From Nereocystis luetkeana (taxonomy: Eukaryota; Sar; Phaeophyceae; Laminariales; Laminariaceae), in NCBI GenBank assembly GCA_031213475.1, contig JARUPZ010000005.1, positions 7,560,988-7,624,987 of the forward strand: DNA of 64,000 bases. Reading direction: 5' to 3'. The first letter of the stretch is position 1. Each line of letters begins with the position of its first letter. Positions 3,439 to 63,395 of this stretch are shown here, in pieces. Below the pieces are notes generated by a model. That model did no database searches, was not told where the DNA came from, and saw only the letters and a program-made list of their open reading frames with translations. The translations under genes were made by a program, and so were the position numbers.

Positions 3439-4465
3439 ACCGTTGCACTAGCTCTGAAACATTCCCCCACATCTAAGAACACTATCGGGGTAAATTCCTA
3501 TTTCGCGTTGGGAGGAATTGTGGTGTGCAGAGGTATGAGTATCTGCCCTGGTTGCATTTAAGCATCACGCTGGATGAAGGGGGGCTACGACCTCAAATTT
3601 TGGGGCGTGATGCTCTACCATTAACAATAACTACTGAACCGTTTTCAGCCTAATGTCGGCGTATTTCCATGCTCAGCAAGGGCGATGCAAACGCCTAGCA
3701 AGGGCAAAACAACGTTTATTTATGTATACCACCGCTTGAACCGAAACCGAGGGCGTAGATCATCAGTCCGCGGATCACTAAACACAGCGAGCGCGGTTCC
3801 ACCGGAAGGGAGTAAGTCCCTTGAGTATGCTTCAAGGCCAGGTAAAAGGGCAAGGGGTCCCTAAGTACACCCCATAGAATGCACACAAGAACTGGGGGGA
3901 TGAGGAGAAAGCAGCAACTTTGATTTGACCAGAATGGTATCCTTACACGGGGGTGTGTGTGTCTGGACGATAAATCGGCGACGGTCGTACTTTTTGTCGT
4001 GGGCGGAAATCATTAAGGCCTGCTCGTGCGACGAAGTAGCGACGTCTTCGCGAAAAATCTGTTAGCATCACAGATACAATAACAGCGCTTGTTTGTAATG
4101 ACGGAAAACGTACACTAATCAGCAAACAAAGTACTGTACTTGTACGTACGGCAGAATGGGCCCGCCACGGTTCGAAGTCGTTTTGTGCCCGCCCGCCAAA
4201 AAACCCAACCGGAGGCCATCGTGAGAGGTTTCCAGCCTACCAGGTATGATATATTCACAATCACTCCAAGCCGAAGCTGTAAAGTTTGCGCATCAACAAC
4301 GGTAACGTCTTACAATACCCAAGAGTTTTGGTGGGTGGACAGGTGGTAAACCCGCTAGAAAGCAAATTCGAGACGTGGGGAGTTAACTCGCCCGCTGCTT
4401 TTTTCATTATCGCGTTTCCCATCGGGCGATGCGTATCATACATTACGAAGGTATTTACCCACAAC
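3439..4465. other. Intergenic, no gene seen
   Basis: No convincing coding region. It contains one TACCAGGTA motif at 4238-4246 and ends at the nested MITE. Short overlapping open frames on both strands look random. Confidence 0.4.
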
Positions 4466-4467
4466 TA

Positions 4468-4668
4468 TTACGGGGGACCATAACTAGTAGGACCAAATAG
4501 TGTTATTACGGGGGGCCATAGTTAATAGGACCTATGGTATACATAAAAACCTCTATATTTAACCGTTTTCACTAACAATATTTGGTCCTATTAACTATGG
4601 CCCCCCGTAATAGTAAAAATGGTTGAATATCTATAGGTGTTTATGTATACCATAGGCGTCCCCCGTAA
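4468..4668 (-). mobile_element. 105-bp TA MITE (family 1), outer copy split by a second copy
   Basis: The left arm starts TTACGGGGGACCATA after TA (4466-4467). It runs to 4505, is interrupted by another member of the same family, and resumes at 4613 with the complementary arm, ending CCCCCGTAA before TA (4669-4670). The orientation is opposite to that of the inner copy. The right terminal repeat has lost about 15 bases compared with the other copies. It is non-coding and non-autonomous; the transposase source is not in the window. Confidence 0.85.
4506..4610 (+). mobile_element. 105-bp TA MITE (family 1), inner copy
   Basis: A complete 105-bp element with terminal inverted repeats of about 30 bp beginning TTACGGGGGGCC. 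It is flanked by TA at 4504-4505 and 4611-4612. It sits at a TA inside the outer family member, where other copies read TGTTAGTAAAA without interruption. This shows insertion with a TA target duplication, the hallmark of the Tc1/mariner (Stowaway-like) group. Confidence 0.92.
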
Positions 4669-6155
4669 TAGCCACGCAGAGAGGGTGGTGGAAAAGCACA
4701 GCGAAGAAATGGTGGGATACGGTGAAGGGCAAGAGGGACAGGAGGAGGAGAACGCGCCAATAGCTGACGCAAGGTTTTACACCGTGAAGAAAAACTATGT
4801 CTTCAATTTTTTTCTTTTCTTGCTTTTTTTTTGCTTTGTCATGCCAATGTTGTTATATTCAAGATGTCGGTTTCGTACCGATTTTTACTGTACCTGGTAT
4901 GAAAAACAAACTGGCTTTCACCGTGAAAAGTCCTAGGAAGAATAATGAACAATGGCGTTTTCGTGTCGTTCTCGGCCTCATCTAGTTGAGGCTCATGCTT
5001 GCAGAAACCTATGTCATTAACAAAAACGCGAAGAAGAGGAAAATAAAAAACAGAGGTCCGCATCTGATACAGTTGGGGCTAGATTTAGAAACGTGATCAC
5101 CCCCCCCCCCCCCGCGTGCGCGCGCTCCATCCCCCGAAAACAAATCCGGCAGAAATAAAAAACCAGGATGTGCGAAAGGTGTAGCGGGTGTTCGTACAGA
5201 TGTAGCGATTGATTACCCGGGTGTTACAATATTGATCAGGTGTTCCCTGCATCCGGGTGTGCTTTCGAAAAATACTAAGGTAGATAAAATACATACACGC
5301 TTCCTCTCGCACATATGTCCCACGCTGTGTCTTTCCGTGTTTTCGTATCGTTTCGTCCGGTTGCCCTGCCTTTTGTGTCCCGTTCTGTTCACCCCCCCCA
5401 CCCACGCGGGACTAAGGGCAATTATTATCGGAGGCCTTTTCCCCATAATAGCCATATTTTGTTCGCGCTATTTTCGTAGTCTTCCAGATTTTCCTGGTTC
5501 GTTTTTCCAAATATGTGAAATTCAACTTTCCTGGTTTTCTTGCTTGTGGAGAGTTTCACAAATTGGGACAGAACACCTCCCTATCTTGATGCATATCTCC
5601 AATTAATTCCAAACTTTGGAAATTCTGGGCGAAAAAACTCTCCTAGGCTCAAAATGAGCGTGAGCAGTTTTAATTTCTAATAGTGCGCCATGTTTCCTTA
5701 TTCTGGGGGGCATCGACGAGTCGGTGGCCTGCCCACCCGAAGAGAGGATACGGACGAGGCCGGTGTTCCCATCGGTATGGATGACGACACAATCGATCGC
5801 ATTCACGCTGCTGTCTGGAGCATCCCGGGCTGCACACCTCCCCAACATTTGTCTTCGCTCTAAGTAGCGGCCGACAGGAGCGCGGAGCGCCTCCTAAACG
5901 CGCCAAACTCAGCGGTCCCAGCTACCGCTAGTACCGGAACGATCATGCTGGTCTGGGATGGTTCACACCCCGCGAACTCGCTCGATAGTGCCATACGTAG
6001 TCCATGTCTACGATACCATATGTATACCTCGTCTCCGTCTCTCTCTCTTCTTCGGTCGGACATATGATCGACTCGTCCACGTATGTTAGGTTCAGGTCCT
6101 TGCTGTATAGATCGAAGTCAATTGGTTCCGCGTGCCGGGGGGTAGTGTGTGTGGC

Positions 6156-6175: not shown

Positions 6176-8946
6176 ATGGAAAACGAGGGGGGGCGCACGG
6201 AACGTGGCAAGGTAAAGCAACGGCAAGCAACAAAACTAAACACGAAGTGTCGCGTGAAAAAAAGCCCGGAGAAGACAGCAACAAATATTTACTGCAATGT
6301 TCATCTCTACTTCGGTTTCTTCGAAGCTCCTCGGGTGCGGCGGACGCATTTGAAGATTATTAATTCCACCATATCGGGTACATGTGCACATGTTTATATA
6401 TTCTCCACTCCGTTTGCACCTTCGCACGCGCTGGTGTTGGTGTCTGCCTACGACATATCTGTTTCTTCGGGGCGTGGTAGCAGGTACGTATACAGATGAA
6501 CTTCGTGAAAACCCAACCTAAACCGGAACCCTAAAGCCCTCTCCAACACTAAAAAACATTGTTGTATTTGCAATTGAGCTTCACCCAGGGTTAAGAGGGG
6601 CTGAGAGATGCAACATGTAGCCTTGGGGTGTCCTCCGCCCTGATAACAAAGCATACCCCACAACACAAAAAAGGTGCCGCCGAGCAATCAACATTAAACG
6701 TTTGTAATCAGCATACATCAGTGCAGTGCTAAATTATATCGTGCAGATAAATTAGTTCGAAACCGACGGCGTACATAACCGCTGCTGGTATTGTTCTTGC
6801 CGCTGCTGTGTCTTCTACTATGTAGTGTCTGATAATGCTTCATAGAGGGCTTTAACGTTGATCACCCGTAAGCATTCACATTCCCAAAAAGAGGAAGAAC
6901 AACCAAGGGAAAAGAAAACGAAACAGCGAAACTAACGCATGCACGATGTCTAACTCGCTTCTGTACGTACCCAGTCCGTCTCGAAATATTTGTTGTTCTG
7001 CCGAGAAGTACCATCAGGCACAGCGAGAGTAGTTACCGTTGCCGCCGCCCCCCCCCCCCCCCCCAAAAAAAAATCTCTTCGCACTCAGCCACGCCTCATT
7101 GCTGTTTTACCGTGAGGCGCGCAAGCGTGAAGCTCGAGCCAATTTTTTTTTTCCCGCTGGAATGCGAACGAATTTATGAGTTACACGACGCCCCCCCCAA
7201 AAATGGGACTCCTTCCAAGATGGACGAAACAGACATTGCTTCATTATGTTTGGATTCTCGGCCGCCGAATTCCCTACCTGGTACTCTCCTCGCACTTGAT
7301 TTCGACCACCAGATTTCATTCCGTGCTTGACCTTAAAGGGATGATGATACGACCGCCTATAGAAATTAACGAAACAGGGACCTGCGTCTTACGTTGCGTT
7401 TGCCATCGACAATGTGCGCCATGGATAAGCTCGGAAATCGATCACCGCTATAAAATTTCCCAGAAAACCGAAGAAAACCAAGGTAAACCAAGGAAAGAAG
7501 CCCGCCTGAACGTTGTCTTAACACTCCATTGTAAGGCTACACCCAGCTTAACATCGATCCAACACATTTTTTGTTGACGATACTGCGTACCAGGGTAACA
7601 GTGAAAAAAAAACCGGTAGGCGCAGCAACAGGGCAGGACCATCGTGACGGGAGGGGCGGGGGGGGGTGCTACTTTTCTTTCCTCGGCTTACCTCGTACAC
7701 GGCGGCGGCCATCTCGCCAGTCTCCTCGGCCGGTGGTGTCGTCTTTCCCGGGTTACTAGCTGTCGGTGAAGTCCCTGTTGAAGACACGCAGCTATTTGTT
7801 CTGGACCCCCTTGTCCGTGAGAGGTCTGCTATATCCAAGCAGCAAGGAGAGTCGTCATCTGAAACGGATCCGTCGCGAGGAAGAAGCGGAGGCGGGAAGG
7901 GAGGTCCTCATATATATGCTGATAGCAAGTACGGGGATTTTATTGATGTTCTTGTCATTCGGGCATTTTTTAGCATAACTATTTTAGTTGCCCCCCCCCC
8001 CCCCCCACCCCCCGGCTCCGTCTCGAAAGGGATGCGTGAGCAATGGTCAAATGACCAAGGCACGCTACAAGTAAGTACCGCCCCCGCCCGCCCCCGCCCG
8101 GCAATGTCCAGCTCAGATCTCGATGCCTCATAAGCCAGTGGGGAAGAAAAACAAAACGCTTACCAGGTATCTGCTTTGTCAGGATTATCACGTTGTTCTT
8201 GTCGGCGGATGATGTGTCCAGGATATCGATCATTCCTCCCGTTCGCATGCATGCGCAATACAGCTGTGTACTTCCTGCGATTCATCACTGTCCTCAATTC
8301 TGATCGCCACGTGTTACGCATCACGTTGCATGCCATTCGACAGCAACAACAGCAGCAAGAAGCTTGCACGAAATAAAATACATCGATCAACCGGCGGCAA
8401 ACATTAAGTAAGTGTACATTAGTAGGATGCGCAGTGCTAACATTGAGGGCAGTGGGGGGGGAAAGGGGTGGGGGGTGGGTGCGATCAGGCGCTGGCCAAT
8501 CAGAAGGAAGACCAGGAAGCCTTTTCCTTAGTGCAATATTTCGTGTGCCCATCAATGGCTCAAAAGGCGTATGAACCTCTTTTTTTGCGTTCTCCCTAGG
8601 TTGTTGGTATGGCCTCCTTGTTTTTTAATTTTTAGTTTCTTGTTTCCTGTTGTTGTTGTTGTGTTTTCTCTTTTCTTCCTAAGTAACTATCGACTATCAT
8701 ATCATACGATAAGAGGGATGGAGGTTTTAATTGGAACCTGCTTTCGGCAGAGACACGAACGTAATACTGCTGCTGCAGTATCATATCGTACGGAGTATCA
8801 ACCAGGTAGTAACTACGAGCGAGCGAAGCACGAGAATGTGATTAACACGACCACCTACAATCAATTTAGCGGCCCTTTTTTGCCGCGGAGGGCAGAGATT
8901 TTAGATTTTGCCACTTAATTATTCGAAAAACTGGTTGTGGGTCATT

Positions 8947-9006: not shown

Positions 9007-9569
9007 GCAGCTGTGTACGAGGCGAACATGAGCAAAGCTGTGAACCCAGCCCTGCGATATAATAAGCCGATTGCACACACACATACACACATACATACAT
9101 GCTCAATCAACCATTGCTTAGCACTGTTAGCCCCCTTGTCTATTATTGTCTCGTACCAGGTATCAGGTAGGTATCAGACACAGCAGCAAGCCGTGAGAGT
9201 GGTGGTGTGCGCCAACACTACTTGTTTATATACCAGGTATATTATGTTCGTGTGTGCCAGCCATGTTTGTTTGTGTGTGCCAACTATTATTATTAATGCG
9301 AGTAGTATTTTTGAAAATTGACGATAAAAAAGGAAACAATTTCAGCAACAACGGGCAACAACTGCGTGATTGGTGATTGGGGGGACGATAAGATATAACT
9401 TGGCGTCCGACTAACGGCAAGGCAAGTATTAACAGGAGTCAGTCGTATCCGTTATCCGTGCTTCTGGGCGCTCATGCTGCTCATAGATGGTTGAAAACTC
9501 CAAATTTGTACACACGTAACTCGTTGTATTGGTCGTTTTCTCGAGGCCCCAACGCCCTATTATTCTGCC

Positions 9570-9608
9570 TACCAGGTACCCTGGTATAACAATACCTGGT
9601 ACCTGGTA
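9570..9608. repeat. Cluster of chained TACCWGGTA motifs
   Basis: Within 39 bp: TACCAGGTA (9570), the variant TACCCTGGTA overlapping it by TA (9577), then two chained TACCTGGTA units (9593 and 9600) sharing a TA. Such chains fit repeated insertion of a 7-bp unit at the TA that a previous unit supplied. Confidence 0.85.
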
Positions 9609-9861: not shown

Positions 9862-10306
9862 CACGACGATTCCAATGAGTTCGAAATAACATCAGATATC
9901 CACCAGCGTCGCGATTCCCATTATTAGTAAGAACGCGAGATGAGACGTGCCCTACTTTGAGCTACAGATTAAAAATAGTTGTCTTCAGTCACTACCTACC
10001 CTGGTACCAGTACTAAATAAAAAGTTGTACGTACCTGGTATGGCGTACCAGTATGATATACCTGGTAAGCTCTACTGCCCACAGCAAGGATTCTCGGAAG
10101 AATGAGAGAACGTGAGTTTTGTACGTACGTAAGAAGTTTAGCCAATCAGATGAATGCGATGTTTCACGATAGCATGAATCGTAGCCCTTGGTAAATCATG
10201 AAATACACCTTGTCTGGTACGTAGCCGCAACCTACACGCAACAGCGCCGTGAAGCAGAGGCAACGCTACAGGTCCAAGGCGTGATACAGACTAGTTTGAG
10301 TTCGGG

Positions 10307-10498: not shown

Positions 10499-10650
10499 TC
10501 GTGGTATTTAATAGTATGCCCGTTTGAGCCGAGAGTTAAGATCCAGTACGTCGTATCTGCTTGAAGAACAATGTGCAAAACTCCATGCGCAAGAACAAGT
10601 TTCAAATCCCATACGTACGTACCGATACGTGCCTGGTACCAGGTACCGTG

Positions 10651-11890: not shown

Positions 11891-12888
11891 GGTATTATTG
11901 TACCCAGGGTATTTATTTATTAGACTGTTTCGTGCTGGCGAAAAAACGAAAACAAAATCTTTCTGTGGTGGCGGCGGGTGCTGTGTGCTGTATGTTATGC
12001 TGTATGTGATGTTGTATAATAGTGATGATGATCGCTCGATTACGATGCTGCTGCTGCTGCTGCTGATGGGACATCGATCGCCACTCCAGGTACTGGTATA
12101 CGTGTACGGTGATCGTAGCACCAGTCGATCTCCAGCAGTATCTATCTACTTTACTTGTAATCATATTTATTTATAAAAATAAAAATACCTGGTACCAGGT
12201 ACATGGTACCACAGGCATTGTACCGACATGTACCTGGAGTCGTGGCGGTCAGCGGCCCGTTGTTACAACACAGGCTCCAACGACCAACAGCACGCGACGA
12301 TCACAACACCAGGGTACCATGACACCACGTGTATATGATACGGCGGTACCGGCATGTCTTCATAGTAATAGTGACTACTATTAATATACTTCGAAGTATA
12401 CACGTACTCGTACAACTGGTACAGACGATGATGGCGTGCTTCTTTGAGGTAGAATGAATCGTCACAGGCTTCAGCCAAGCTTCTCGACTAAAAAATAAAC
12501 CTCAAAAAGTGGCAGTTGTTACAAAACGTCGGCCAATCAAATTGCCCCCGCCCAGGCCTGTTGCGTGCCTCGTGACTCGACCTGTCAAAGTATTTGCAGT
12601 CTCTCTTGCATCGTGGGGCAGACAGCAGTGTGACTGCGTGCAGTTCTTTCGGAGGGCATGTTTGATGACCCAGGGGCAAGGAAGGGAAGGGGGGAGAGCC
12701 CCGGATTTGCACGGCGGCAAGTAAGTGTGATCCGATTGCCGCGGACCAGCTCGAGGGAAGAGCTCTGGCAGGCCCGCTCGCGATCGCGGATGAAGATACT
12801 ACACCTCGTGCCCACGCGAGGGCAAAACTGGCTTGTTGAGACTGTGCTGTTTTGTCGTGAATTTTCGACGGTTCGTGGAGCATCGTTT
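11891..12888. other. Intergenic between R1 copy a and the LINE
   Basis: Non-coding. It includes a (CTG)n tract at about 12046-12064, a chained TACCTGGTACCAGGTA at 12186-12201 followed by the degraded unit TACATGGTA, and further partial motifs to 12.32 kb. No gene is supported. Confidence 0.4.
12186..12201. repeat. Chained TACCWGGTA pair
   Basis: TACCTGGTA and TACCAGGTA share one TA; a degraded third unit, TACATGGTA, shares the next TA. The two central bases (T then A) are opposite, giving a larger inverted symmetry. Confidence 0.85.
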
Positions 12889-17169: not shown

Positions 17170-17319
17170 GCTCGAACGCTAGTTAGACGCGCAAGCAAGG
17201 TCAAGGCCGCGCTCCACTGGGAGCTCTAGCACGTGTTGGGGAAGCCGCAGGCCGGAGCTCCACCCCGGCCGGGGAGCAGCCGAGGGAGGAATACCTGGTA
17301 GTGTGTGTGTGTGTGGTTG

Positions 17320-18591: not shown

Positions 18592-20690
18592 CAGTATCAA
18601 AGGCACTGCTGCTGTGTACTCAATGGGTTTCCTCCCTACTTTCTTCGCGAACAAGTGCTCGCCTGTGCAATCTATGGTACAGCAGCAGTACCGACGCGAG
18701 TGGGCGAGGGGGAAGAAAGGGCTGAGGTCTTCTCGCGTTACGAATGCAAGGTACGAACCCTGAGTGCAGAGGGGGGAGGAGAGCCTGCTATGTGACCCTG
18801 GATCTGTGTCACGACTACAGTTAGTAGGAGGGAGAGAGAAAAGAAGGGGCGAAGGTGGTCAATGATAAGAAGGAAAGAAAATTCAGCACCGATGTGACCA
18901 ACCGACCTGCGACCACATGAGACAAGGAAGGGGTCTAGCAAGAGGGGAGAAACGAAGACCAGACACTGTACTACTACTGTAGTAAGTATGATAGCATGCC
19001 GCGGCGGGGATGCCTCAAAACAAATGCCTTACCGACACCCCCCACCCCCGCCCCCCGATGTCCCGTCTCGGCATTGTAGGGACGCCCCCTCCCCCAGGGG
19101 GGGGGGCGAAACACATACCTGGTACCTGGCACCAGGTACATATTTTCCTTTCTGATGGTCCTTGTTGTGGACACGCTTGGACAAGATTTTGCCCAATGCT
19201 TTCTTCTTGTGCTTCGTTCGATACAGCTACATAACGCAACGTTGCGTGTTTCTAGCCGACTGTGATTACTGATTGGTCGTGATTCAGACAAACAAACACT
19301 TAATTTACAACACCGTGGCGTGTGACACCGTGCGATATACTCTGTCTGATAAGTCGTAAGCCAGCGAGAGGCACAGTCCGTAGGCAGATGGGGTTGTTGC
19401 CTCTGACTTTTCTGGCGAAACACGCGTACACTCTTGGGCTCCACTGTCAATGGGGGCAGTGTTGTGTACCCAGGGTCCTGCAGCATTCTTCGAAGTAAAA
19501 AACTCCAATAAAGTCGTCGTGTCTCCCGGAGCCACAGCCTTGTCTTGATAGACCAACAATGGTTATTTATGAAGTGAAATATCCGGGAAGACAGATTGTT
19601 TCTACTTCGTACGATCATACTGTATTTCAGTATGGTGGGCTACGTACCCGATATACGGTAACGTCGGGAAGGTCCAAGGAAACTCCCCCGTAGGGAATGG
19701 ATACTTATGTCATACGTTATCCCCGGGGGCTTCCACTCCAATATATGGAGGCGTTTTCGTACTGGGGATAGAGGACACGAATCGTCACGGAATCATTTCC
19801 AGTTTGGTTCAGGGACAACGGTCAAACCATTGAGGATTCGGCTCGACCAGCCACCATCTGGATTGACCGATCTTCTGCAGAACGTGACAACACGATGCGT
19901 GCGTGTTGTACAACTCCTTGCAGTGCACTACAGTCTTTTGGTAATATCAGCAAATGTATCACCCCCCCCCCTCATCCTTGCAGCGCCAGGTTGCTATACG
20001 CATGGCGGACGGTTGTCACATGTACGTTTGGCGGACGCTGCAACCAACCGTCTTTCTCTATCCTTATCATCACCTCTGATTTTCCATGAAGGTGGACAGG
20101 GCCCTACTACTGGCATTCTAATACGTCCGAGGAGTGACTTGGTTTTAGTCTGCGTCGATCCCTCCATCAAAATGTAGTTAAAAAAATCGCAACCACCCAT
20201 CTTTGCATCCATTTGTTCTTTCGAAGAGAACAACAAATCCAACGCTTGTTTAGTTGACCGGCAGGTTAATATTGATACAGTAAATTTATATTTTTGCGCG
20301 TGACTTAGGACCCCTCACATCGCCAGGCTGGACTCATCGAATGGTGTTGTAGCTCTTAGACCCCCCCCCCCGAAATTCTGCCTGGTCGGTGAAAACCCGA
20401 CATGCTCCGTCCCGGCATTGTAGGGATGCGAGGGTCTATGATCACACGACTACGGCCATGCATGAGAGCGAGTACATCTCTCTTATCGAGTACACCCCCC
20501 CCCCCCCCCCCCCGAAACTACAGCGGTGCATGGCACTGAATACCCCCCCCCCCCCCCCCCCCCGGTGCCCCGCCACCCTAACCTACCCCATACCCCACCC
20601 CACCCCTGTTAGCTATAGAGGGTTTTCCGTTCTCCGGGCATCGAAAATATTCAATACCGTAATCAAGGCCGTCAAACTTGAACCAGCCTA
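18592..20690. other. Intergenic with C-runs
   Basis: No gene supported. It contains the chain TACCTGGTACCTGGCACCAGGTA starting at 19116, polyC runs (C19 at 20495, C21 at 20543), and two copies of a short phrase with GGCATTGTAGGGA (near 19070 and 20412). Several short frames overlap on both strands and have no coding character. Confidence 0.4.
20495..20563. repeat. Two long C homopolymers (C19 and C21)
   Basis: C-runs at 20495-20513 and 20543-20563, separated by 29 bases that resemble each other only partly. The longest homopolymers in the window. Confidence 0.9.
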
Positions 20691-22749: not shown

Positions 22750-23690
22750 CCGAAGAATCGCACGTGTTGTGGAATCCCGAGAACGTGCACAGTAGACCAC
22801 ACAGACATCCCACTTACGCTCGTCTCAAGTCAAGAATTGTTCGGGTCCGCCTGTGCCGGGCAGTAACTGGCTGCCAGCTCGCACTTGGTGTGCGACCATC
22901 ACCACTACTTTCGCATCGCAAAAGGATACGAATGCCGACTAACCTCGCGTCAGTTAACAGCACACTCTCGACCTGTCCCAGCGACCGACTAACCTCGCGT
23001 CAGTTAACAGCACACTCTCGACCTGTCCCAGCGACCGAGCCCTCTCTCAAGCGCCGTTCGGTCCAAGCTCGGCAAACCCTCGCCTTCGCCTGTCGAAACG
23101 CGCAACGTCCAAGGGAAAGGAAGATGGTAAATCCGTTCACATCAGGAGACCGCCTCGTTTTACCTGGTATGCAGATAACATCCTAATTTTTCACCAGCCC
23201 CGCTGCCGCAGTACGCTCTCTCGTCCTATCCCGCGCTGTACGTATTGCCCCCGTGCTATGCACTCGCATTACCTCTACAAATAGCTCCCGCCAGAAAGGG
23301 ATAACGAGGTGCGGGTGAAAGATCAGCGAGACACGGTTATGCGCCGTCATGACAGAGGGGCTACTTAAAGGGCGCAGCATACGTACTCCACAGAGGTCTG
23401 CTCTGTGACCTCTGTAACGTGTGTTGTTTGTTACGGTTCACATGCAAATAGATACCAACTCATAGAACAGTCGTCCGGATGCAGAAACAGTCGAAAATAA
23501 ATCGGTTTTGGGGGAGCTTTCCGATCTTACGAAGTTGCATTCGCGGGAGACGCGAAAAACAAGTCAGGGCTTTGCCTAACCATACTCTGCATACTCTGTA
23601 TAATACTACAGTCCATCGATTACCTCGATCTATCGCATCAGGATATCAACCGTGTCCCTTCTTTGCGTAGTTTGTTTCTATCGATGAGTA
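22750..23690. repeat. Duplicated block, unit 1, middle part
   Basis: Paralogous to 38700-39860 and 54300-55580. Shared phrases: CCGCCTGTGCCGGGC / CGGCCTGTGCCGGGC; the segment CTCTCTCG...CGCGCTGTAC; AGAGGGGCTA; and GCATCAGGATATCAACCGT. All three copies are diverged and non-coding. In this unit it is broken by the R1 retroposon at 23704. Confidence 0.7.
22935..23038. repeat. Perfect 50-bp tandem duplication
   Basis: Two identical 50-bp units (22935-22984 and 22985-23034, starting CCGACTAACCTCGCG), with the first bases of a third. No mismatch is seen, in contrast to the diverged surroundings, so the duplication is recent. Confidence 0.93.
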
Positions 23691-26159: not shown

Positions 26160-27355
26160 ACCTCGTACATCGTATACATATTAACAGGAGAACGCGCGAA
26201 CGCGGGACACCGAACACGGTATGACCAACCAGTTCCTTCACCAGATCGATGAGATCCAGTCTGAACGAACAGTTATTTTCTTGAAAAGATAAGATTCGGA
26301 TAGGCCCGTCAATGTGCTCAAGCCCATCCACTCCAATCCTTCTGCGTTTCCTCGCTTCCTGCTGTTGTTGCAGTCCTGTTGTAGTTGTTGGAAATACAAC
26401 GGTACGTTGCTGATGTACAGTTCGCTCGCAGAACGGGTGTCATTCTCGGTAATACTGCTGTACAGCTGTGCCAGGTACCTGGTATGGTACAGCAGAACCC
26501 GTTTACCCACTCAGCACAACACTGAGCGCACAGCAGCAGTGGTACAGCAGCTGTCAGTTTTTCGCGTATTGTCGCCTTTCAACCCCTCTCGACCCTCGCC
26601 ACCCGTACAGGGCCACGAGTACTTCGGACTGAAAGAGGACCACTTTATAATATGGCTCGATACAAATGGCATCACAGATGCAGCAGGCCAAGCGGCACGC
26701 AGCACTGGTTGATGTGCTGCATCCTGCCGTTGGGTTGTGTCCCACGAGTACGAGGTACATGGCTGCCAGCAGGTTATTGGGAACCAGGTATCTCCGACGC
26801 AACCAGTGCCCCATCTTGATACTGCTGCAGTTCGAATCCCTGATTTATTGCAAACCAGAGTGCATTGCTCACCCAGCAGATGCAAGATTGCGGAGAAGCC
26901 TATAGAATCAAATCGTGAGCGTGTCCATAATGTCCAGGGCATTGAGGCCCAGGGGAGTGGGACGTGGACTCGCAAGTCGCAGAATCCCTGTTTTGGTGAA
27001 ATCTCTCGTAAGAAGGGGTTTCAACTACTGTGGTTCTTGAGGCGTTACGGTTCAATAGTTTTTGACAGCTTTCTTATTAAATCTCCGACGCAACCAGTGC
27101 CCCATTGGGTTCCTTTTCTTCAGAGACGTTCAAGGCTTTCGATAGGTTCTAGAGGCGCTCGCTTTCGCTTTCGAGAGATCGTCCAGTTTTCGTTTTTTGT
27201 CGGAGGAGTGTGGGGCAGATGCTTGCATCCGACAAGGCAAAGAGGAAAGGGCATATAATTATTGCTCGTGGCCCATTCCTTGTGCGGTTTCCAACACGGC
27301 TTGCTGCCCAAATTTCAACTATTATAATAGCCTTCAACAAGACACACCGCACCCC
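26160..27355. repeat. Upstream region of BTB/TLDc gene 1 (duplicated)
   Basis: Non-coding. Related to 43680-44575 and 59985-60671: AACCCCTCTCGACCCTCGCC versus CATCCCTCTCGACCCTGGCC; TGTGTCCCACGAG; the GGCGTTACGGTT phrase; and CAACTATTATAAT just before the gene (gene 3 has CAACTATTATATTAATA followed by a CCCTGGTA unit). It presumably contains the gene's promoter, but no defined element could be recognised. Confidence 0.6.
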
Positions 27356-38555: not shown

Positions 38556-38699
38556 GAGGCATCTTTTGACAGTTGTGAACCAGGGTGGAGTATTTCGCCA
38601 AACAGGTGGACTGTGAATAGCTATGTTACACAAGTCAAACCGATTTTTCTGTTGTACCAGGTAGCTCTCAAGGGGCTTGTAGCATAACATAACTACAGT

Positions 38700-39860
38700 C
38701 GAAGAACGCACGCATGTGCGATGGCGATACGTGCTTCTCCAGCCCCGCAGTGTCCGGTTCGGCCTAGGTCGGGGCACAAAGTGTCTGCACCAGCTTGTCT
38801 GCTCGAGCCTAAAACGGAGGGCGACCATCACACGCGAACACGCATCGAAATACGGAGTATCGGTACTGACTTCATTGCCAGCAGAGTATTCTGCCGTGTG
38901 CGGTGTACGTTCGCGGTTTAACCTGTACATACGGTAGCGGTGAGTTTGAAATGTCTCGTACCTTGTATTGCTGATCATGGGTCCACTCTGTAGCATCTTC
39001 CATCTACAGTGACCTCGACTTGTCCCCTGCGCTCTTCGGTCCGAGCTCGGTCTGCTTCCAGGGCCCCTCGCTCGGCCTGTCCACGTGACCAATGCCCAAG
39101 GGAAAGACAAAGGCGGGGTACAACATTTTCGTCCAGCCAACCGGAAGGGTTGCCAGAGAGAAGATCTGGACAGGAGGGTGTGCACAAACCTACTGTAAAA
39201 CCAGAGTAAGCACAAGAAAGAAACATGCGGTTTGTTCATAAACCCCACCCCACTCGTTTCTTTTCTCATCCGGACATGGGGGTGGAGTGTGGAATCGTTC
39301 TCTCTTCCACTGCAGTCGTGCACCCTGGCCAGTGGGATCCTCTCACCCGTTCCGCTTGCCGCACCAGGCTCTCTCGGTCAGCCGCCCGATCTCGCGCTGT
39401 ACCTATCGCCGCCTATGTACGTCCCTCGCATGACCTCTAGTTTTCGCCTGCAGCGATATTGAGATTAGCGCGGACGGCAAATAAAAGACGGTGACGAGCC
39501 GTCAACGCGAAGGGGCTACTCTAAAGATCGCGGTCTACTCCACAGGAGATTTTTCTCACAGGAACGGTTATTTAGCGCTACCGTTCGTGAAAAAACGATT
39601 TACCTATTTCCATGAAACCGCCTATTCGATGCAGAGGTGTTCGAAAAAACTACCTGGTAGCATTTGGTAAGCTTTACGGGTTTTTTAAGATGGAGTCGCA
39701 GGGAATCTCGAAGTAAGACTGGGACGGTTTTAAAACCAGAACCCAGCCAGCGTTCATCGAACACACCAATCTTCTGCATCAGGATACCAACAACCATCAC
39801 GCTTCTTCGCATCGTTTGGTCTCTAGGCATTGCGCATTGTTGCTCGGTTTTTCGTGATCC
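38700..39860. repeat. Duplicated block, unit 2, middle part
   Basis: Paralogous to 22750-23690 and 54300-55580. It lacks the R1 retroposon found in unit 1, so it gives the empty site (near 39840-39860). A TACCTGGTA at 39651 falls where unit 3 has no such motif, although the alignment there is loose. Confidence 0.65.
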
Positions 39861-41309: not shown

Positions 41310-43590
41310 CCGCCGGTTCCCGCACCGCTGCTGAGTCGAAACGCACGAAGGGACAAGGCGGCCAAGGCGGTCTCCGTGAGCGAGCCTGTGTGCAAATAGA
41401 ACACTGCTGTATGCCTTCTTGTACGTACCAGGTACCAGGTATATACAAAATATTTTGTACACAATGTTTCATTACATCGGTCTACCTTTTCAAATCAGCC
41501 AGCGCGATAATTTGAAGAGTACTGCTGTACATTTCGATCTACCTTTCAAACCAGCCAGCCGTTACGTGAAGACTAAACGACCATGTCTGAAACAGGCAGT
41601 CGGTAGAGCAGTGCCTGGCAAGTAGTTGGTCACCAAGGGTATACGCTTTTAGTGGCCGTCGTTCGTCGCATAGCCATCACAGAAGTACAACAGCAGAATG
41701 TAGCATCGTCGAGGGCGCGAGAGCGCGAAAAGGCAAACTCCGATAAAAACCAACGGCCGATGGGAATGCTTGGTCCTCTCGAGATACAAATCAAAGCACG
41801 AGTGCCGAGGGAGAAAACGGAGGACACCTTCCACTACGCCTTGTCCAGAACACCTGTGTTGCATCTTGCACTGCACACACAATACCCAATTCCTAGGGCA
41901 GCGAGTCGGCGCGCGACTGAAGTCACGAACGACAGCAGTAGTTATTAGTCGGGGTTTATAGGAAGTTAGTCGTTCCCAACAGGTGCCGACTATCCGACTC
42001 GTTGGGCTTCCATACTACGATATCAATAGTACAAAAGATAGTTCAACGCGAGTATTCGTGTTTCAGGCGGGCGGGTGCCCTCGGCCAGAGAGGACTGGTT
42101 GGGCTCGCTTCGCTCACCTGACCCAAGTCGGCCAATCGGCTGGCCTCGCCAGCCGACTCGCCGACTAAAGTCAGTTACTTGGCTACAACGTCACCCGCCG
42201 ATTAGTCAACGTAATACCCTCTGCGAACGCCACCGGGGGCGCCTACACTTTTTGGGGGGGGAAAAGAACACCCCAGGGCGTTCTCGGAGGTAGGGGGGTA
42301 ATCTCTCCAAGAAACAAAATCGGGCGAAAATTCCACGGGGTGTTGGTCTCTTTTTTCTGCACGAACACACAAACATAAACTTTGCCGCGGACCCGGCGCT
42401 GGAACCCACGATGTCGGAGGGCCTTAAGGGCCCATCTTAACGGGGAATTTACTTTTTTTCAATTTGATTTTTTTTTTTTTTTTTTCTAATTTAATTTGCA
42501 TCTGATTGGCCGAAGAGTGAACGACCAAGCAGGCACATTAGAAACTTTGAACTTGAGTGAAAAGGTCTTTTGGGACTTTTTCGTGTGAGTTTTTTTGTTT
42601 CAATTTGGAATTTGTGAGTTCCTCGGTCTTGACGTAGCATGTTCATGGTGGGTGGGTCAACACCCTCGGTGGAGTCTGGGGCGATTCTTGGCTGCTTCGG
42701 TGACCACGATGGAGGCGATAAAACGCGAACCTCAACGGGAAGTGACTGGAGCAATAGCCGCGCCCACCCCCACACACCATAGCACATCGTACCCCGGCGG
42801 TGGCGCCTCAAAAGTAATCATGGCGGCCGCAATCCCAAAATTTCGGCCTGCTCGATCGGCAAACAATCGCGAAAAGCGAGCGAACGAGCAAAAAAACGGA
42901 GGATACGCTCGAGACCTCGATAGCTGCATCACCGCTGCTGTTACTCACGTGGCGCCTGAGGGCTTTCTCCCCCCCCCCCAAGACACCCTGAGAGTGATAG
43001 CTTCGTATCCTGCGCGACCAAAAAGAAAAAGAGGCTGGCGGCGGCGCGATCGCGGCAGCGCAAACCTTCGCTCTCGTCTACGCGCGTCGCGGTTGATCGG
43101 TTGGGCGTAGTGTGATGCGGCGCGTTGTTCCAGAATTAATTTTCGATTGACAACTACTAATAGTACCCCTTTCCCCGCCAAACACGTTTTTTTTTCGAAA
43201 TCGAATTAAAATTCATCGAAATTATTTTTTTACTTCCATATAGCGTTCCCCGATAAGATGGGCCCTAACCAACATCTGCGAGAAAGCTTTGAAAAAGCCG
43301 AAGAAAGGCGGTTGGGGAAGCTTGCGCCGTTCGCCGCCGGGGGAGGATGCGCCCTCCGGCACCCCCCTCCGACGCAATCTCTGTCTCTCTGGTTATGCGT
43401 TGTTTTGAAATGCCATACTCGTACGTACCTGTGGGAGGTCTTTCTTGTGCTTTCTGGCACAACAAGATTCAACGGCGGTTTACGTAATCAGCCTCGTCGC
43501 TTTTATTGAAAACGTGGTTCCTGGAGATTGATTTTTTGCTGTTTATGTAACCAAGTACGTATACACCAGGTATGTACCCCGTAGTACTGC
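41310..43590. other. Intergenic in unit 2
   Basis: No gene supported. Chained TACCAGGTACCAGGTA at 41426-41441. A forward frame at 42595-43110 is open for 171 codons, but its reverse strand is also open and neither shows a domain. T-runs lie near 42450-42485. Confidence 0.4.
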
Positions 43591-43595: not shown

Positions 43596-43618
43596 TACCA
43601 GGTACCTGGTACCTGGTA
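43596..43618. repeat. Three chained TACCWGGTA motifs
   Basis: TACCAGGTA, TACCTGGTA and TACCTGGTA at 43596, 43603 and 43610, each sharing a TA with the next: a perfect 7-bp ladder of three. Confidence 0.93.
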
Positions 43619-48881: not shown

Positions 48882-48889
48882 TTAAAACG

Positions 48890-50445: not shown

Positions 50446-50790
50446 CGCGTTCTACGATAGAGGTAGCACATTTATTGAATGACGAAGCTCCTTAACCCTT
50501 TTAGAACCGCAGTCCCGTTCTGGGGACAAACCAGTCAAATTTCAAGTATTTTTGTCCCCAGACGGGACTGCGGTTCTAAAGGGGTTAACCCAAAATCGTC
50601 GGAAGGCCAAGCATGCTTCGAAAAATGGCGTCATTGTAAACTTGGGTCATGGGAGTTTTCATCGGGATGCAGTTCTATTTTTGCTGATTTCAGTGTTCGG
50701 GTGAGGTGTGGAGCTCCTCAAGGGAGGAGGCTCAGAAAATTTTGAGTGCGAAACTTCTATCGTAAAACGCATCCTAACCCCTATTTTATT
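50446..50790. repeat. Duplicated segment, filled copy
   Basis: Paralogous to 53654-53905: GCGTTCTACGATAGAGGTAGCA at the start, CCCAAAATCGTCGGAA in the middle, and AGCTCCT.AAG.GAG.. at the end. It differs mainly by the family-2 MITE at 50496, so the pair gives the empty and filled states of one insertion. Confidence 0.88.
50496..50584. mobile_element. Family-2 MITE (TTAA type) with empty-site control
   Basis: 89 bp from CCCTTTTAGAACCGCAG to CTGCGGTTCTAAAGGGG, flanked by TTAA at 50492-50495 and 50585-50588. The paralog at about 53716 reads CCTTAACCCAAAATCG without the element, i.e. a single TTAA. This shows insertion at TTAA with its duplication. Confidence 0.95.
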
Positions 50791-50794
50791 CTCG

Positions 50795-53650
50795 AGGAGG
50801 GGTGGTCAAGCCCTGCTACCCGCTGTTTGTGACTGCAGCGGTGGAACTGTGTGCTGTAAGATACCGACGTCAAGTGTCGGGTAAGTGTCGAAAAAGGTGA
50901 GGGGCCAGTGTGGGATAAGGTTTTCGAGGGCCCGTTTTAGTTGGGCTTTTGTTGCACCAATCCGTGTTGTGAGCGGTATGAGCCACAGCCGACTGCAGCC
51001 GATAAAAAAAAAAACACGCGGTGTATGGTGGGGGCAAGCGTGGGGTGCATCATTGCGTTTCAAAGAATCGTGATAACTTAGCGCCAAGCTTTGTTCGGGC
51101 AGTCTTCCGCCAACGTTTTTCGCGGCGATCTGCAAATAAATCTGCAACGCATGTGGGTTCTATTTGCAGTGGCCACCCGCTTTACTTTAGAAGTACGTGG
51201 ACCGAATCGTTGCGAGCTGCCCGAATTTTTCTTGGCGGTCACCTGAAAGTTTCGTGCAGCAGAAGTCATGATAAATCTATCCCACCAGCTGCTTTTGTAG
51301 ATAGAGGGGGTGCGGTACCTATATGCTGTCATCAAGGCGTGCGCTCTTTACGAAAAAGAGGGGGTAAGTGTCTACGCGGTGGGTGTATTTTACAGAAATT
51401 TCCTGCCGTAGCAGCTGTGCACCACTTTGCTTGTTGCAGTAAGCGCGCACGCGCGAGGGGGGGTGTACCAAAGAGATGCATGACTGCAGTCATATGACCA
51501 TAGGGTGGGGGGGGGGGGTGCCGTAGTTGTATGAGCATAGACCCTCGCATCCTTACGATGCCGGCACGGAGCACGTCGAATTTTTACCGACCAGGTAGAT
51601 ATTGCTTACACCAAGCGCGAAGCGCTATGGGGTGTTAGGCGAGTTGCGTGAAGGGTGAGCTCCATCCTACTAAAAAGCGCCTGTGATGCGGATTTTCTTA
51701 CATGTGGATGACAGCGTCGATTAATTGAAGTATTTTCTGGTGTGGCTACTCCGAGAGACGGCAATGGGTTTACTCTGTAACTGCCTCGGGGGTGCCTTAC
51801 CATACAAAGACTGCGTGATATAGCCATCCCCCTTGTGCGGAGTCAAGGTTCTCCCCGCACTAAAAGGATCTAACTCGACCGCCAGCCGTGGTGACCTCAA
51901 AAAAAAAAACGGTACCCTGGTTGTCTAGCTCACGCAGTGAGAAACGTGTTATACACCGTCGTCGCCAACCGGCGCCAACCCAACCTATATTATACAAATA
52001 GGGGACAAAAAGCGGTCTTCGTGTCTGTATGTGCGTGGGTTTCTTTTTGTTCGTGGTATATTTCGTGTTCCACGTTTCACCGATCCTGTCGACTGCCCCT
52101 GGTTCAGAGCTCAGGAGGAGGTGCGTGCAGAGTCGCATCTACAAGTAGTAGCGTTTGTGCGATTCCCAATTCGGACGACACGATGCCAACAGCAGCCGAC
52201 TATAATATCGGTAACCACTACTACCAGGCACCAGGTAGTCCCGATAGGTGAAAAAAACTGACGCCAACCATTCCGTGCCGTAGGTAGTGTCGGAACAAGT
52301 CTGTTATTAATAGTTGGGGGGGGGGGGCAAGCGATGGAGAGCATATTGTATGAAGGACGTCCTGAGACTAAAAAAAAAAACTTGATTTGGATAATTCGCG
52401 TCATGAACACCCACAGCGGACAAAATCAAATGGCGTCCTCTAAAAGAAGCAGAAGCAACATGTGGAAGGTGCCAATCAAGATGGATCGTGAAGTAACACT
52501 ACCCCCCGGTGATATCTGCCGTAGCTTCCACGCGTCGTCTGTAACATCATTTTTTCTTTTCGGGGGTCATTGAGTAGATTAGATGGGTATTTCGTGACGA
52601 AGGCAACGTTTTTACTTTTGGTGACAAGCAAGTCACGACCCGTGACATTTGCATAATACTATAATAGTATACCCTGGTATGTATTTTTATGTTGATGACC
52701 CGCGATGAAATGCATTCGAGCGCTGTTCTCCGTGCGCATATATATTTTTTTTGTGTGCGAGTCGCAGATGGAGTTGGTGAGAGTGACGAGAGAGACCAGT
52801 CGGCACCGGCACCGGACGACACCCCAGCAGGCGGGGTTAGGCTCATACTGAGCGTCTGCGTGCCGGCTATCGGTACTGTTCGTGATCGTACAGGGCGGAG
52901 ATGGTATTCAATTTTTCGTTGTGGCTGTTTTGTTATTTTTTGTTTATGTACCGCGTGAAATGAACACAATTAATTGCGCATACAGCAATTCGATATGAGT
53001 CGACGAGGGAAGGTCGTGTCAGTTGCGGCTCTTGAACGGGGAACCTGATTTTAAAAGAAATCAATCACGTGCTCTTTTTTGGGGGGGTCTATCTCACTTT
53101 GACTTTCCAGATTGTGGACAAGCCGTGGTCGCATGTGTCGTCCCTTCTCCGCTATATTTTTATCGCCCAGACGGTTCAGCATTTCCGACTGCTCGTCGAT
53201 TTTCATCGAGTTTTGCGACTAACTAACCCTCTCAAACGAGAAAATGTCCTCAGGCTGGTGGAATCGTCCCCCTGCTTATAGTAGTTGCTAATAATATTCG
53301 CTCGATATCAGTCTTGCTTCGTTCTCATTTTTGTCGTGCCGTCTTATCGAAACTACTGCTGGGGAGACCATCTTGCAAAACTCTGACTTTTTCCCCAAGT
53401 ACACAGCTTGTTATAATCACGGTCCTATTCGATGATGTGACAGGACACCCCTGACTTGTCGTGCCGCATTGAATGAAGTTGGCGCAATTTATCATAGCCT
53501 ATTGGCTAAAAAAAACACGCCCACCGACCCCTCTCAAATGACGTTGCTAGGCGTCCCTAGCTACTGCGTTGGCCGTATTGTCATGGATGTGTTGTTGTTG
53601 TCGTCCTCAGCCTCGTCATATACTACAGTATTAACGAAAGATGTCCTGCC
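50795..53650. other. Intergenic in unit 3
   Basis: No gene supported. G-runs near 51507 and 52318, and a TACCCTGGTA variant near 52672. 53.1-53.28 kb is paralogous to 63.17-63.35 kb (GGACAAGCCGTGGTC versus GGACAAGCCGCGGTT, and CTGCTCGTCGATTTTCATCGA). Confidence 0.4.
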
Positions 53651-58699: not shown

Positions 58700-59985
58700 G
58701 CCGCTGCTATCGTTGCCACGTCTGTTGCTGCTGCTGACGATTTTGGGTTTCTTGAAATTATGAACACAGACGTCACGGAAACGTCACGGATACACACTAC
58801 CACGTTCGTAGATGTTCTTTCGTGTTGGTTCCGCATAATCCGTATGCGCCCAGCATGATGCATCGCAGATATGACTACTGCAGGTACTGAGGTCGCGCCT
58901 TATTAGCACCAACTACTATTAATACAGTAGCACCTGGTATGAACACTGTACGTATACGCTACTGAAACCTAGCGACTATCGTACAACAGCATCTTTATAC
59001 TACTTGTGCCGCGAGCATATTTGAAAACAGGTACCTGGTACCAGCAGGTATCAGGTACGTACACACCTGGCTACGCCAACGGTAAGGTTTATCGTCACAT
59101 ATTCGTAACGCCAGAGTATAAACAGCAGCCGTATCACTGAGAGCGCGAGCACGTGGGATGGCAAAGTTAAACAAATTGCTTGAAAAATCAACGAGCAGTG
59201 GGATTGTGTGGGATACTGAACCATGTGCGCGATAAAAATCGTGCGTCGACGGGGACAATGGAAGCCACCTGTGACCAAGGCTTGCCCCCAGGAGATCGCC
59301 GACCAGGTATAAATAATGTCAGGTACAGCACTTACCCTGGTAACTATTAAATACTGGTGTACGACAGCCTTGCTACCTTTTATACTTCGACCGAAAAACA
59401 TGAACCTGGTACTCGTACAAGTTTTTAGTTTTATCAACCGTTCACGAGTAGTGTGAACGCCGAACAGTACGGATAGGACCATGCTGTGCCGTGTCGTATG
59501 TATGACCTGGTATGCGACCCCTGGCTTTAATAAAAAACTAAAAAGTACGTCAGCTGTGAGTTCAACCGATCGGCAGACCGGTCGATACTCAACTTTCCAA
59601 GCGGCGTGAACCATTCGCGCGTTTTCCGTTATTTTACTCCGCGATCGACTACTGGCCGGTGACTCCCCTGGCTGGGTGCTACGAAGGTCGACGAGACGGT
59701 GATTCTTGCCAGATACAGGCTTCGTAGTTCGGACAAAAACTTGTATCATCCCCCCAATCGTCACTTTTTGTCTCATTTTCCCTCTCTCACGTCCCAAAAA
59801 GGTACATGTGCCGTCGTTCCCTCACAGAACAGGCGTACCTGGTACCAAGTACCAGGTACGTCGTATGTCGTCATAGATCCTGACAAACTGACCCAACATC
59901 ATACCCGTAAACCTACCTACCCTGGTACTATACCTACCTATCCTACTATTAATAGACCAGGATCGACTTTTTTGGTTACGTAGTC
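58700..59985. other. Intergenic in unit 3
   Basis: No gene supported. Rich in TACCWGGTA and variants (59032, 59335, 59836, 59850, 59920) and in CTATTAATA-type palindromes (58913, 59943). A long minus-strand frame at 59051-59797 (248 codons) has no recognisable domain and unremarkable composition. Confidence 0.4.
59836..59858. repeat. TACCTGGTA and TACCAGGTA flanking TACCAAG
   Basis: Two exact motifs at 59836 and 59850, with the decayed unit TACCAAGTA between them sharing both TAs: an original chain of three. Confidence 0.88.
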
Positions 59986-60671
59986 TCACCTTCCCACCCC
60001 TCTTGACCTTCGCCATGAACACCACCCCATTGTACCGGCAAACCGGACGCAAACATGATCCGTCCTCGCTGCTCCTTGCTGCTTGCTGCTGCTGTTTGTT
60101 CCTCAACGAGAACGTGTCATACGTACCAATCTCCGATGCAGTGACATATGAAGCCCTCTAGCTCTACGCATTGGAACTCCGGATGCGTTGTTCTCATCCA
60201 ACTGCTGCAAGGTTACGGGTCAGCCTAGAGACTCACATCCTGAAATTTCCCGATAGATCCGCAGTGCTGAAACCCTGGAGAAATGAGGTGCTTGCGCTTG
60301 CTCGATGCGATGCGGTACGTATGATGTTTCAATTTCACAGGGTTTCGATTAGTTCTAAAGGCGTTACGGTTTCACACATGAGCATGCATAGTCCTTGACC
60401 GACATCTTTCGTCTGCGCTCTTACATTCGGTGCCGGCACGAAGAAAGGATAGCGTATTGATCCTGCCCCTGTTGGCTACCAGAGGCTTGGGGTTGGGGTT
60501 GAGGTTGGGGTTGGGATTGGAGTCGGGGCATTCCTCTCTCGGGCGCAGTTCCCAAACACGGCGGCCCGCTGCCCAAACGTCAACAAATCTTCAACTATTA
60601 TATTAATACCCTGGTATTAGGCTCTGGGCAAACCCCCACCAGAACCAACCCCATACTGCTGTTGTACCGCC
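59985..60671. repeat. Upstream region of BTB/TLDc gene 3 (duplicated)
   Basis: Paralogous to 43680-44575 and 26470-27355. At 60608-60617 a TACCCTGGTA unit lies about 55 bp before the start codon, where gene 1 has CAACTATTATAATAG with no such unit. Presumed promoter region; no specific element assigned. Confidence 0.6.
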
Positions 60672-62414: not shown

Positions 62415-63128
62415 GTGTTTTTTTTCGCGAGAGGCTGCTGTTTAACTATTGTTGGGCGTGTCAGGGTTACATTGTGCAGCGGGCAGGCCAGACCAGGGGG
62501 GAGGGGGAGCGTCTGTGATGTTTTCGGGAGTGGAGGTGTTCACCCTTCTTGGTACTCGCGGGAGGTGTTCGCGGGAGGGGTGGCTGATTTTGCCTCTCTC
62601 GTACATATGAATACGTGTTCGTCGAAAGAAGCAGGCTGCCCCCCGTTGATGAGCCAAAGTTCAGCGCCCGTATGACTTAATAATCTAATTATACTGTATT
62701 CGGTCTACAAATAAATGGAGGCACTGTAAAATAATGTATAATGGGCTATGTGTACGCTGTACAAGGTCCCCCTCCCCCTAGATCGTACCGCCTCAATACG
62801 CACAACTTCAAGGTCACCCAAGGTCTGGCATTTCCGTTCGGTGTCGACCCGAGGCACCGACCCACGTCGGTGTGTTCTCCACACCGCTACTGCACCTGAG
62901 CGAACCTGCAAGGGAGACTGCCCCACGCTGGCGTCGTCGGTAGCTGTGGCCTTTTCCCTGGGAAACTCTCGGAGTGGGGACGGACTCAATCCGGGAAGAG
63001 CCGGCCCGATTTTCTTACTTTCCAGTGGAAAAAGGAACTTGAAGTAAAAAAAATGCGTCTTTTGAAACCTCGTAATGAAAATCTCGCATGAAGATCGGCC
63101 TGATACCATATATTCGTTACCCTTCTAT

Positions 63129-63165
63129 GATATATATATATATATATACCAGGTATATATTATTT
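63129..63165. repeat. (TA)n microsatellite interrupted by CCAGG
   Basis: About ten TA repeats, then CCAGG, then TATATAT. Insertion of CCAGG plus a TA into a pure TA tract is the simplest reading. Confidence 0.85.
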
Positions 63166-63395
63166 CGTCATCACTTTTTCTTTCCAGCTTCTGGACAAGC
63201 CGCGGTTACTTATGTCGCCCCTTCTCCCCCCCCCCCCCCGGTACGTTCCTTCATATTTATCCCGCATAGGGTCCAGCGTTCCCACTGCTCGTCGAGTTTC
63301 ATCGAATGTTGCAAACTCACGCTCTCGCGCTTTCCGCTACCTGGTAGTCAATTTGCATGCAAGAAAAAGCCCCTACGAGTACGTATATGCACTCG

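Follow-up and report, generated by a model that had tools for sequence, protein, structure and literature searches.

The 9-bp word TACCWGGTA is heavily over-represented throughout the genome of the brown alga Nereocystis luetkeana, and we consider its copies to be, with good probability, footprints left at TA sites by the excision of a cut-and-paste transposon, with five nucleotides staying behind. Our analysis started from a stretch of 64,000 nucleotides (contig JARUPZ010000005.1 of assembly GCA_031213475.1, positions 7,560,988 to 7,624,987; called the window below), for which a preliminary description had counted 39 exact copies by eye and estimated an over-representation of about 80 times. 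An exact recount also gives 39, lying between positions 4238 and 63346, with A at the centre of 16 and T at the centre of 23; one further word has G in this place and none has C. Dinucleotide shuffles of the window (n=100) contain 0.27 copies on average and at most 2, while Markov models expect 0.32 to 0.64 copies at orders 1 to 3 and 1.65 at order 4, the orders above 4 containing most of the word itself. Depending on the model the excess is roughly 24- to 145-fold, a range in which the earlier estimate sits fairly. The variants mentioned beside the exact word are real as well, with seven cases of TACCCTGGTA/TACCAGGGTA in the window. The genome-wide count that had been set as a check finds 182,395 copies in the 465-Mb assembly (1,987 contigs), far above the 1,744 copies of the reversed word used as control. 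The density in the window, 0.61 per kb, is higher than the genome mean of 0.39 per kb, and the long reading frames of the window contain 2 of the 39 copies. When 25 spot samples of 10 kb were taken from ten contigs, 23 held at least one copy, with a total of 80. Among the 1,172 TA-N5-TA sites in the window and the spot samples together (314 kb), CCWGG is the core of 119 and the runner-up core of 19. The over-representation is confirmed as real, very strong and genome-wide.

The A/T centre of the word had been read as the mark of two mismatched overhangs. This holds as a count, but because CCAGG and CCTGG are reverse complements, and hence one word on two strands, it cannot on its own show that a mismatch was repaired.

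When copies of the same repeat are compared, the TACCWGGTA sites look like 7-bp insertions into TA. In an all-against-all comparison, a copy of a miniature inverted-repeat transposable element (MITE) of about 110 bp at 33060-33187 of the window, named MITE-A, contains two motifs where its sister copies have TA only. A survey of all insertions of 4-14 bp in good alignments, made without any prior on the motif, found 166 sites, of which 29 are flanked by TA; CCWGG is the top core, with 7 of these 29 and 7 of the 10 insertions of 7 bp. For a stricter test, a homolog had to have the same flanks around a single TA, with at least 70% identity over 30 letters, a better score than the filled model and the TA present. 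Such empty sites, as left by insertion into TA with TA duplication in Tc1/mariner elements, exist for 5 of 24 CCWGG sites and for 7 of 285 sites with other 5-nt cores (one-sided Fisher p=0.001); when TA is not demanded, the numbers are 7/24 and 9/285 (p=5e-5). The 6-nt core CCAGGG/CCCTGG behaves in the same way (2/5 against 6/308, p=0.0055), and one of its empty sites, at position 668 of locus L013, is letter-perfect when compared with L025. The footprint at 33084..33092 in the MITE-A copy is empty in 14 of 16 homologous copies (8 with TA, 5 with CA and 1 with TG) and unclear in 2, and the second footprint of this copy, at 33117..33125, is empty in 11 of 17 (10 TA, 1 TC), filled in 1 and unclear in 5. 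At position 3009 of locus L040 the 7 bp are missing in 14 of 14 homologs, 10 of which read TA. As nearly all compared copies lack the 7 bp at 33084 and at L040 3009, the insertion is the derived state. A TACCTGGTA footprint at 63338..63346 lies within a copy of a repeat resembling short interspersed nuclear elements (SINE-like, about 63188-63467); the 7 bp are missing in 2 of 4 homologs, which read CA (L027 and L014), and L022 has TA in the all-against-all alignment.

The flanks of the motif show a distinct target preference. The left and right flanks of 109 arrays were analysed apart and have the same mirrored preference. The unit is matched at 5 or 6 of its 7 letters in 35 of the 218 flanks (5.5 expected), and the signal at 7 bp is partly due to such decayed neighbouring units. 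After removal of the 48 flanks with at least 4 unit matches, 170 were kept and compared with 28,451 background flanks. These cleaned flanks have W at position -7 in 80%, A at -6 in 38%, T at -4 in 39%, A at -3 in 42%, T at -2 in 41% and A at -1 in 50%, with T down to 7% at -1, which gives the logo W-A-N-T-A-T-A ahead of the TA. The flanks form an AT-alternating palindrome around TA, and since A and T are resolved position by position, this is not plain AT-richness. An AT-alternating palindromic target is characteristic of Tc1/mariner elements and is found here before cleaning (218 flanks) as well as after it (170 flanks). The logo resembles the ATATATAT target given for Sleeping Beauty and ZB (PMC7913693).

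The length of the inserted core is nearly constant, and where it varies it does so in one direction. Genome-wide, the 5-nt scar is accompanied by 11,422 copies of the 6-nt form TACCAGGGTA (control 409), whereas the mirror form TACCTGGGTA has 1,578 (control 362) and the 7-nt form TACCAGGGNTA at most 1,596 when summed over the four bases (control 383). In our sample, 14 of 23 TA-CCNNGG-TA sites have the TACCAGGGTA form. Random G/C slippage within scars already present would yield both 6-nt forms, CCAGG and CCTGG being the same word on two strands, so the 7-fold excess of one form means that the scar is directional and reads CCAGG, then G. On a simple reading of these sequences, the element end would be predicted to begin with CCAGGG, with the cut or trimming falling mostly past letter 5 and sometimes past letter 6.

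A second word serves as the best internal control for the retention and visibility of excision scars in this genome. A MITE family of about 109-110 bp, with ends TATTACGGGGGACC that are often preceded by C, has copies in the window at 4503-4615, 18483-18591, 21383-21492, 33060-33187 and 40102-40211; its ends have 27 matches in 264 kb, 17 of them with C ahead. The joined ends of this MITE match TATTAATA, a word that occurs 62 times in 314 kb (15 in the window) and, counting both strands, 106 times in 264 kb against 22.5 expected. It is set in C...G in 11 of 53 cases. Strict empty sites, with TA required, were found for 4 of 15 copies and 19 of 381 controls (p=0.0077), and for 5 of 15 copies without the TA requirement. 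From its sequence, TATTAATA is likely to be a second scar, left by the TATTACGGGGGACC MITE. The words TA-CAG-TA and TA-CGAG-TA resemble 3-nt and 4-nt Tc1-type scars and are also enriched in 264 kb (TACAGTA 97 against 37, TACGAGTA 37 against 10; an example is found at 63374 of the window). Neither these two nor the core CAGCAG give a firm empty-site signal, with 2/36 against 1/263 for CAG (p=0.039, both from one L014 repeat), 1/11 for CGAG (p=0.49) and 0/7 for CAGCAG.

We therefore favour a mechanism in which the transposon would insert at TA and duplicate it, and the excision cut would leave the first 5 nt of the element end (CCAGG) at the donor site; in about 6% of the cases with 5 or 6 nt, six would stay behind (CCAGGG). 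Two CCAGG overhangs are complementary at 4 of 5 positions and could anneal, and the repair of the middle mismatch would give TA-CCWGG-TA; in Sleeping Beauty the overhang letters are CAG, which self-pair at 2 of 3 positions. Fresh insertions would favour TA sites in AT-alternating surroundings. They would also favour the TAs of earlier footprints, and so build up tandem arrays with a 7-bp step. A scar in CCAGG orientation comes near the target preference, positions -3 and -1 ahead of its right TA being A and G, so that scars may be good targets. If the donor site is closed by end joining, each hop would leave one scar and no extra copy, and the rate at which neutral scars pile up would equal that of hops per genome and generation. 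By this argument, which is not a measurement, scars would accumulate without growth in the number of elements, and 180,000 scars would be compatible with an element of low copy number or one that has been lost.

By analogy, the proposed scar would work like a Tc1/mariner footprint, departing with its 5 nt from the 2-4 bp that are reported (PMC7913693). The Tc1/mariner cut is reported to lie two to three nt inside the element end (PMC2170065), and Sleeping Beauty has a 3-nt overhang (PMC7827188). A short end-derived scar between two TAs and an AT-alternating palindromic target are shared with Sleeping Beauty and ZB (PMC7827188, PMC7913693), but these leave 3 nt and 0-3 nt, respectively, whereas here 5 nt, or 6 nt in about 6%, stay behind, with 182,395 copies counted in a natural genome. 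The pogo-like element Passer has a TA target in a palindromic consensus too, and pogo-type DDE_1 domains are present here (28 matches); its footprints are 0-4 bp and its target is AAGTACTT (PMC9976928), and the DDE_1 places that we read are without CCWGG ends. Another similar case are the Stowaway MITEs and Osmar5 of grasses, whose empty sites likewise keep pieces of the terminal inverted repeats between TAs. Their scars consist of 1-4 bp of inverted repeat beside each TA and are varied and known from few loci, while ours are uniform and genome-wide; also unlike in Stowaway/Osmar5, no MITE with ends matching the scar was found here. The internal eliminated sequences of Paramecium are bounded by TA and excised on a genome scale, but they restore a single TA with no extra nucleotides, whereas 5 nt remain here. 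The brown alga Ectocarpus has 17 Mariner-Tc1 families of this TA-targeting superfamily with 11,912 copies, mostly non-autonomous (PMC12477816); neither 'footprint' nor 'excision' is used in the main text of that paper. Our search of the literature on brown-alga excision footprints and genome-wide transposon footprints, subscription journals not covered, found no comparable scar population, and among the matches listed by a search for the word strings none is on algae or transposons by title.

Several observations weigh against excision footprints and have to be set beside the evidence above. The first is the length: 182,395 copies have 5 nt and 11,422 have 6 nt, instead of the 2-4 nt of Tc1/mariner footprints. 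Together with the missing element this is why we do not file the word as a Tc1/mariner footprint. The length is also unusually uniform, about 94% of the cases with 5 or 6 nt sharing one value, where reported Tc1/mariner footprints are often mixed. Secondly, the empty sites come from few repeat families: the homologs at window 33084 and L040 3009 are copies of one MITE family, and a single MITE copy holds two of the five strict empty sites, so that the raw counts overstate the independent evidence. Two of the seven loosely scored empty sites (window 63338 and L026 9581) have CA or GA in place of TA in the scored homologs. Homologs exist for 22 arrays; every comparable copy is filled for 6 of these, so that a part of the sites cannot be young, and the picture is unclear for 9. 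The counts of 6-nt forms and dimers, moreover, include copies of one repeat, which are not independent events (9 of 95 6-nt sites and 9 of 38 opposite-orientation dimers on contig C1, among the matches listed), to which we return below.

A further point against an excised transposon is that the element itself was not found in the searches made. The 122 TACCWGG words without a following TA in 276 kb have no common extension by eye, and an inverted-repeat search of the same length, with 686 candidate pairs, has no CCAGG/CCTGG-ended pair that stands out (best 13/20 letters). A transposase motif scan with one regular expression over 326 kb had no match. Genome-wide, the DDE_3 profile (PF13358) has 0 matches, its control having matched in 3 of 14 genomes; the 0 matches of Transposase_1 (PF01359) weigh weakly, its controls being silent too, and DDE_1 (PF03184) has 28 matches. 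Five DDE_1 stretches (L039-L043, 4.4-5 kb each, holding 6 of the 28 matches) show no CCWGG ends, with the limit that a longer element could extend beyond them; L039-L041 are without TACCAGGG, and L042 and L043 without any TACCWGG. One of them, L042 (C34:4444700-4449100), has two DDE_1 matches in opposite orientation within a palindrome of about 4.4 kb. Genome-wide searches for paired ends found TACCAGGG...CCCTGGTA 19 times at 77-137 bp and 33 times at 197-257 bp, where chance would give about 30, and TACCAGGV...BCCTGGTA 145 times at 197-257 bp against about 137. These searches covered the two length ranges named, with ends reading CCAGGTA left out, and the reversed-pattern controls (349 and 333) were not used because they are inflated, the reversed word lying in a MITE. 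A peak at 243-248 bp (10 of the 33 pair matches) was considered as a possible MITE and dropped, since 33 and 145 are near the chance values of 30 and 137. The transposon with CCAGG or CCTGG ends for which the preliminary description had proposed a search was thus found neither in 276 kb nor, in the two length ranges, genome-wide. Its proposal of a TA-flanked 5-nt excision footprint has gained from the TA-only sister copies, the Tc1-like mirrored target and the polar 6-nt form, and it still lacks the source element.

The lack of a donor element in the searches made and the very uniform product length raise the question whether CCWGGTA, 7 bp in all, is itself what is inserted. An enzyme would then cut TA, and a fixed short sequence would be added via templated repair or as a tiny mobile unit, with no long element involved. 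We regard this as unlikely. No enzyme known to us adds a fixed sequence of 7 bp, which counts against it, as does the presence of a second likely scar, TATTAATA, in the same genome together with its MITE. The polar CCAGGG extension would be expected from a longer end, and Tc1-like integration has this same target logo (PMC7913693).

If the words are excision footprints, this would change what can be learned from a genome about its transposons. Excision scars are usually studied singly, in reporter assays or at single loci, whereas about 180,000 near-identical, orientable and decaying scars would allow the hop rate, target choice, repair outcome and age to be studied without the transposon. Past jumps seem to be recorded in this genome in a form that can be counted. 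Copy number could then understate transposon activity by orders of magnitude, and TA-N5-TA spectra could expose unseen elements in other genomes. A more daring idea, which we think rather improbable, is that insertions are removed as a rule: the transposase of the element, or a domesticated one, would cut at TA-CCAGG borders in each generation or life phase (for example the haploid phase, without a homologous template), and only the 7-bp scars would survive. In that case the scars would be a near-complete long-term ledger of jumps, and the enzyme with its 5-nt stagger would be of no described family.

The repeat on contig C1 leads to another possibility, namely that the motif is the terminus of an abundant unrecognised repeat and has spread along with it. 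In the 9 of 95 cases mentioned above, the 6-nt site is paired with the dimer TACCAGGTACCTGGTA at a distance of 294-307 bp and in constant relative orientation, spread over 6.5 Mb. By this spacing, a dispersed repeat 304-317 bp long is bounded by TACCAGGTACCTGGTA on one side and by TACCCTGGTA on the opposite side; its copies lie on C1 at 239145, 1475098, 2622152, 3790996, 4417578, 4664595, 5031850, 5928757 and 6517423. If C1 is typical, some 600 copies would exist genome-wide. The repeat of about 310 bp may be the non-autonomous element that is sought or an ordinary repeat that has caught two scars. As an account of the motif in general, a spreading repeat terminus is very unlikely: the copies in the window have unrelated flanks, the TA-only sites differ by 7 or 8 bp and not by 300, and the 600 scaled-up copies are a small share of 182,395, yet could be the element that is sought. 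TACCAGGGTA also recurs every 528 bp at C1:1305185-1308362, probably a tandem array with one scar per 528-bp unit. The repeat of about 310 bp (9/95) and the few copies of the 528-bp array are too little to explain the 7-fold polarity. A pair of sites at 59025-59342 of the window was taken for a copy of the C1 repeat and rejected; its interior is a truncated SINE-like repeat, and the match may be due to chance.

A protein-binding site that is maintained or multiplied by selection would agree with a near-palindrome, with abundance across the genome and with the uneven density (one 8-kb bin of the window has 11 copies, another has 0). We nevertheless give this explanation hardly any weight, because the sites occur within MITE and SINE-like copies whose sister copies are without them, and because they are visibly decaying. 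When both strands are counted and the centre is excluded, 252 words with one mismatch are found against 121 expected, beside 238 exact ones; the excess includes transitions (108 against 43 expected) as well as transversions (144 against 78). If all of this excess is decay, the mean divergence of the scars would be about 6-7% per site, which suggests that they were laid down across a long period.

The motif also forms arrays, and 86 of 93 consist of one unit. Overlapping dimers TACCWGGTACCWGGTA number 15,917 genome-wide against 2 in the control, and 4,522 of these are of the opposite-orientation type TACCAGGTACCTGGTA; among the plus-strand dimers listed (n=59), 40 have the same orientation and 19 the opposite. 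A tandem repeat or microsatellite would be made of units in one orientation, head to tail and mostly in multiple copies, which is not the picture given by these numbers. The excess of same-orientation dimers leaves room for some slippage or for an orientation bias, but with opposite dimers this common slippage alone is insufficient for the arrays. Microsatellite-like slippage of a 7-bp unit TACCWGG, in spite of the number of dimers and of the 40 in 59 with the same orientation among the matches listed, is the least probable explanation and mostly refuted, as it cannot make opposite dimers (even with about a quarter of them, 9/38 among the matches listed, coming from one repeat), most arrays are single units and the TA-only sites show single insertions. 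The dimer is also present in 9 viral-contig stretches.

Within the window, the 5-nt footprints are given here without a strand. Exact TACCAGGTA matches are found at 4238..4246, 8161..8169, 31645..31653 and 35091..35099, and exact TACCTGGTA matches at 4891..4899, 7275..7283, 10032..10040, 10059..10067, 17292..17300, 23161..23169, 31451..31459, 32369..32377, 35135..35143, 39651..39659 and 59032..59040. Other TACCAGGTA footprints lie in particular surroundings: at 9154..9162 with an adjoining unit TATCAGGTA at 9161 that has one mismatch, at 9231..9239 in a TATA context, at 10637..10645 with the one-mismatch unit TGCCTGGTA ahead at 10630, at 38655..38663 within a 365-aa frame of uncertain status, and at 63147..63155 in a (TA)n tract. 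The TACCTGGTA footprint at 19116..19124 is followed by one-mismatch units at 19123 and 19130 and lies within a 214-aa frame of uncertain status, and the one at 26476..26484 has a one-mismatch unit ahead at 26469. Tandem dimers of opposite orientations (T then A) are found at 12186..12201 and 34832..34847 and one of the same orientation at 41426..41441, and a tandem trimer with centres A, T and T at 43596..43618. The array at 59836..59858 has exact units at 59836 and 59850 and a one-mismatch unit at 59843 between them. In the compound array at 9570..9608, a 5-nt unit (9570-9578) overlaps a 6-nt unit (9577-9586) and is followed by a same-orientation tandem dimer (9593-9608). The 6-nt form TACCAGGGTA occurs on the plus strand at 7588..7597, a word match to the form of the polarity counts, and on the minus strand, reading TACCCTGGTA on the plus strand, at 9997..10006, 52670..52679, 59333..59342, 59918..59927 and 60607..60616.

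The window contains further repeats. A second short inverted-repeat family, with ends TAACCCTTTTAGAACCGCAGTCCCG and a length of about 77-105 bp, is found at 37400, 48789-48884, 50493-50578 and 55898. The SINE-like repeat of about 330 bp occurs at 63188-63467, 53112-53233, 41741-41850 and 59184-59302, and also in L014, L018, L022, L027 and L028, its copies and fragments together exceeding a dozen in about 350 kb; its head is tRNA-like by eye and its tail A-rich. ARAGORN found no tRNA genes in the window. A 1259-aa frame on the minus strand (13390-17169) has endonuclease and reverse transcriptase domains and belongs to a retrotransposon of the long interspersed nuclear element type. Frames with TLD and/or BTB domains lie on the plus strand at 27197-29089, 44576-46357 and 60672-61550, the TLD of the first and third being below the curated cut-off. 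Their protein family is large, and relatives are numerous in Laminaria. The 593-aa BTB/TLD protein at 44576-46357 has 79 matches including itself, and those labelled with an organism are from brown algae; by these matches the host would be a brown alga close to the kelps, the size of the family allowing no finer placement. Its best match has 66% identity, with 64% for Laminaria digitata and 60% for an apparent Undaria sequence.

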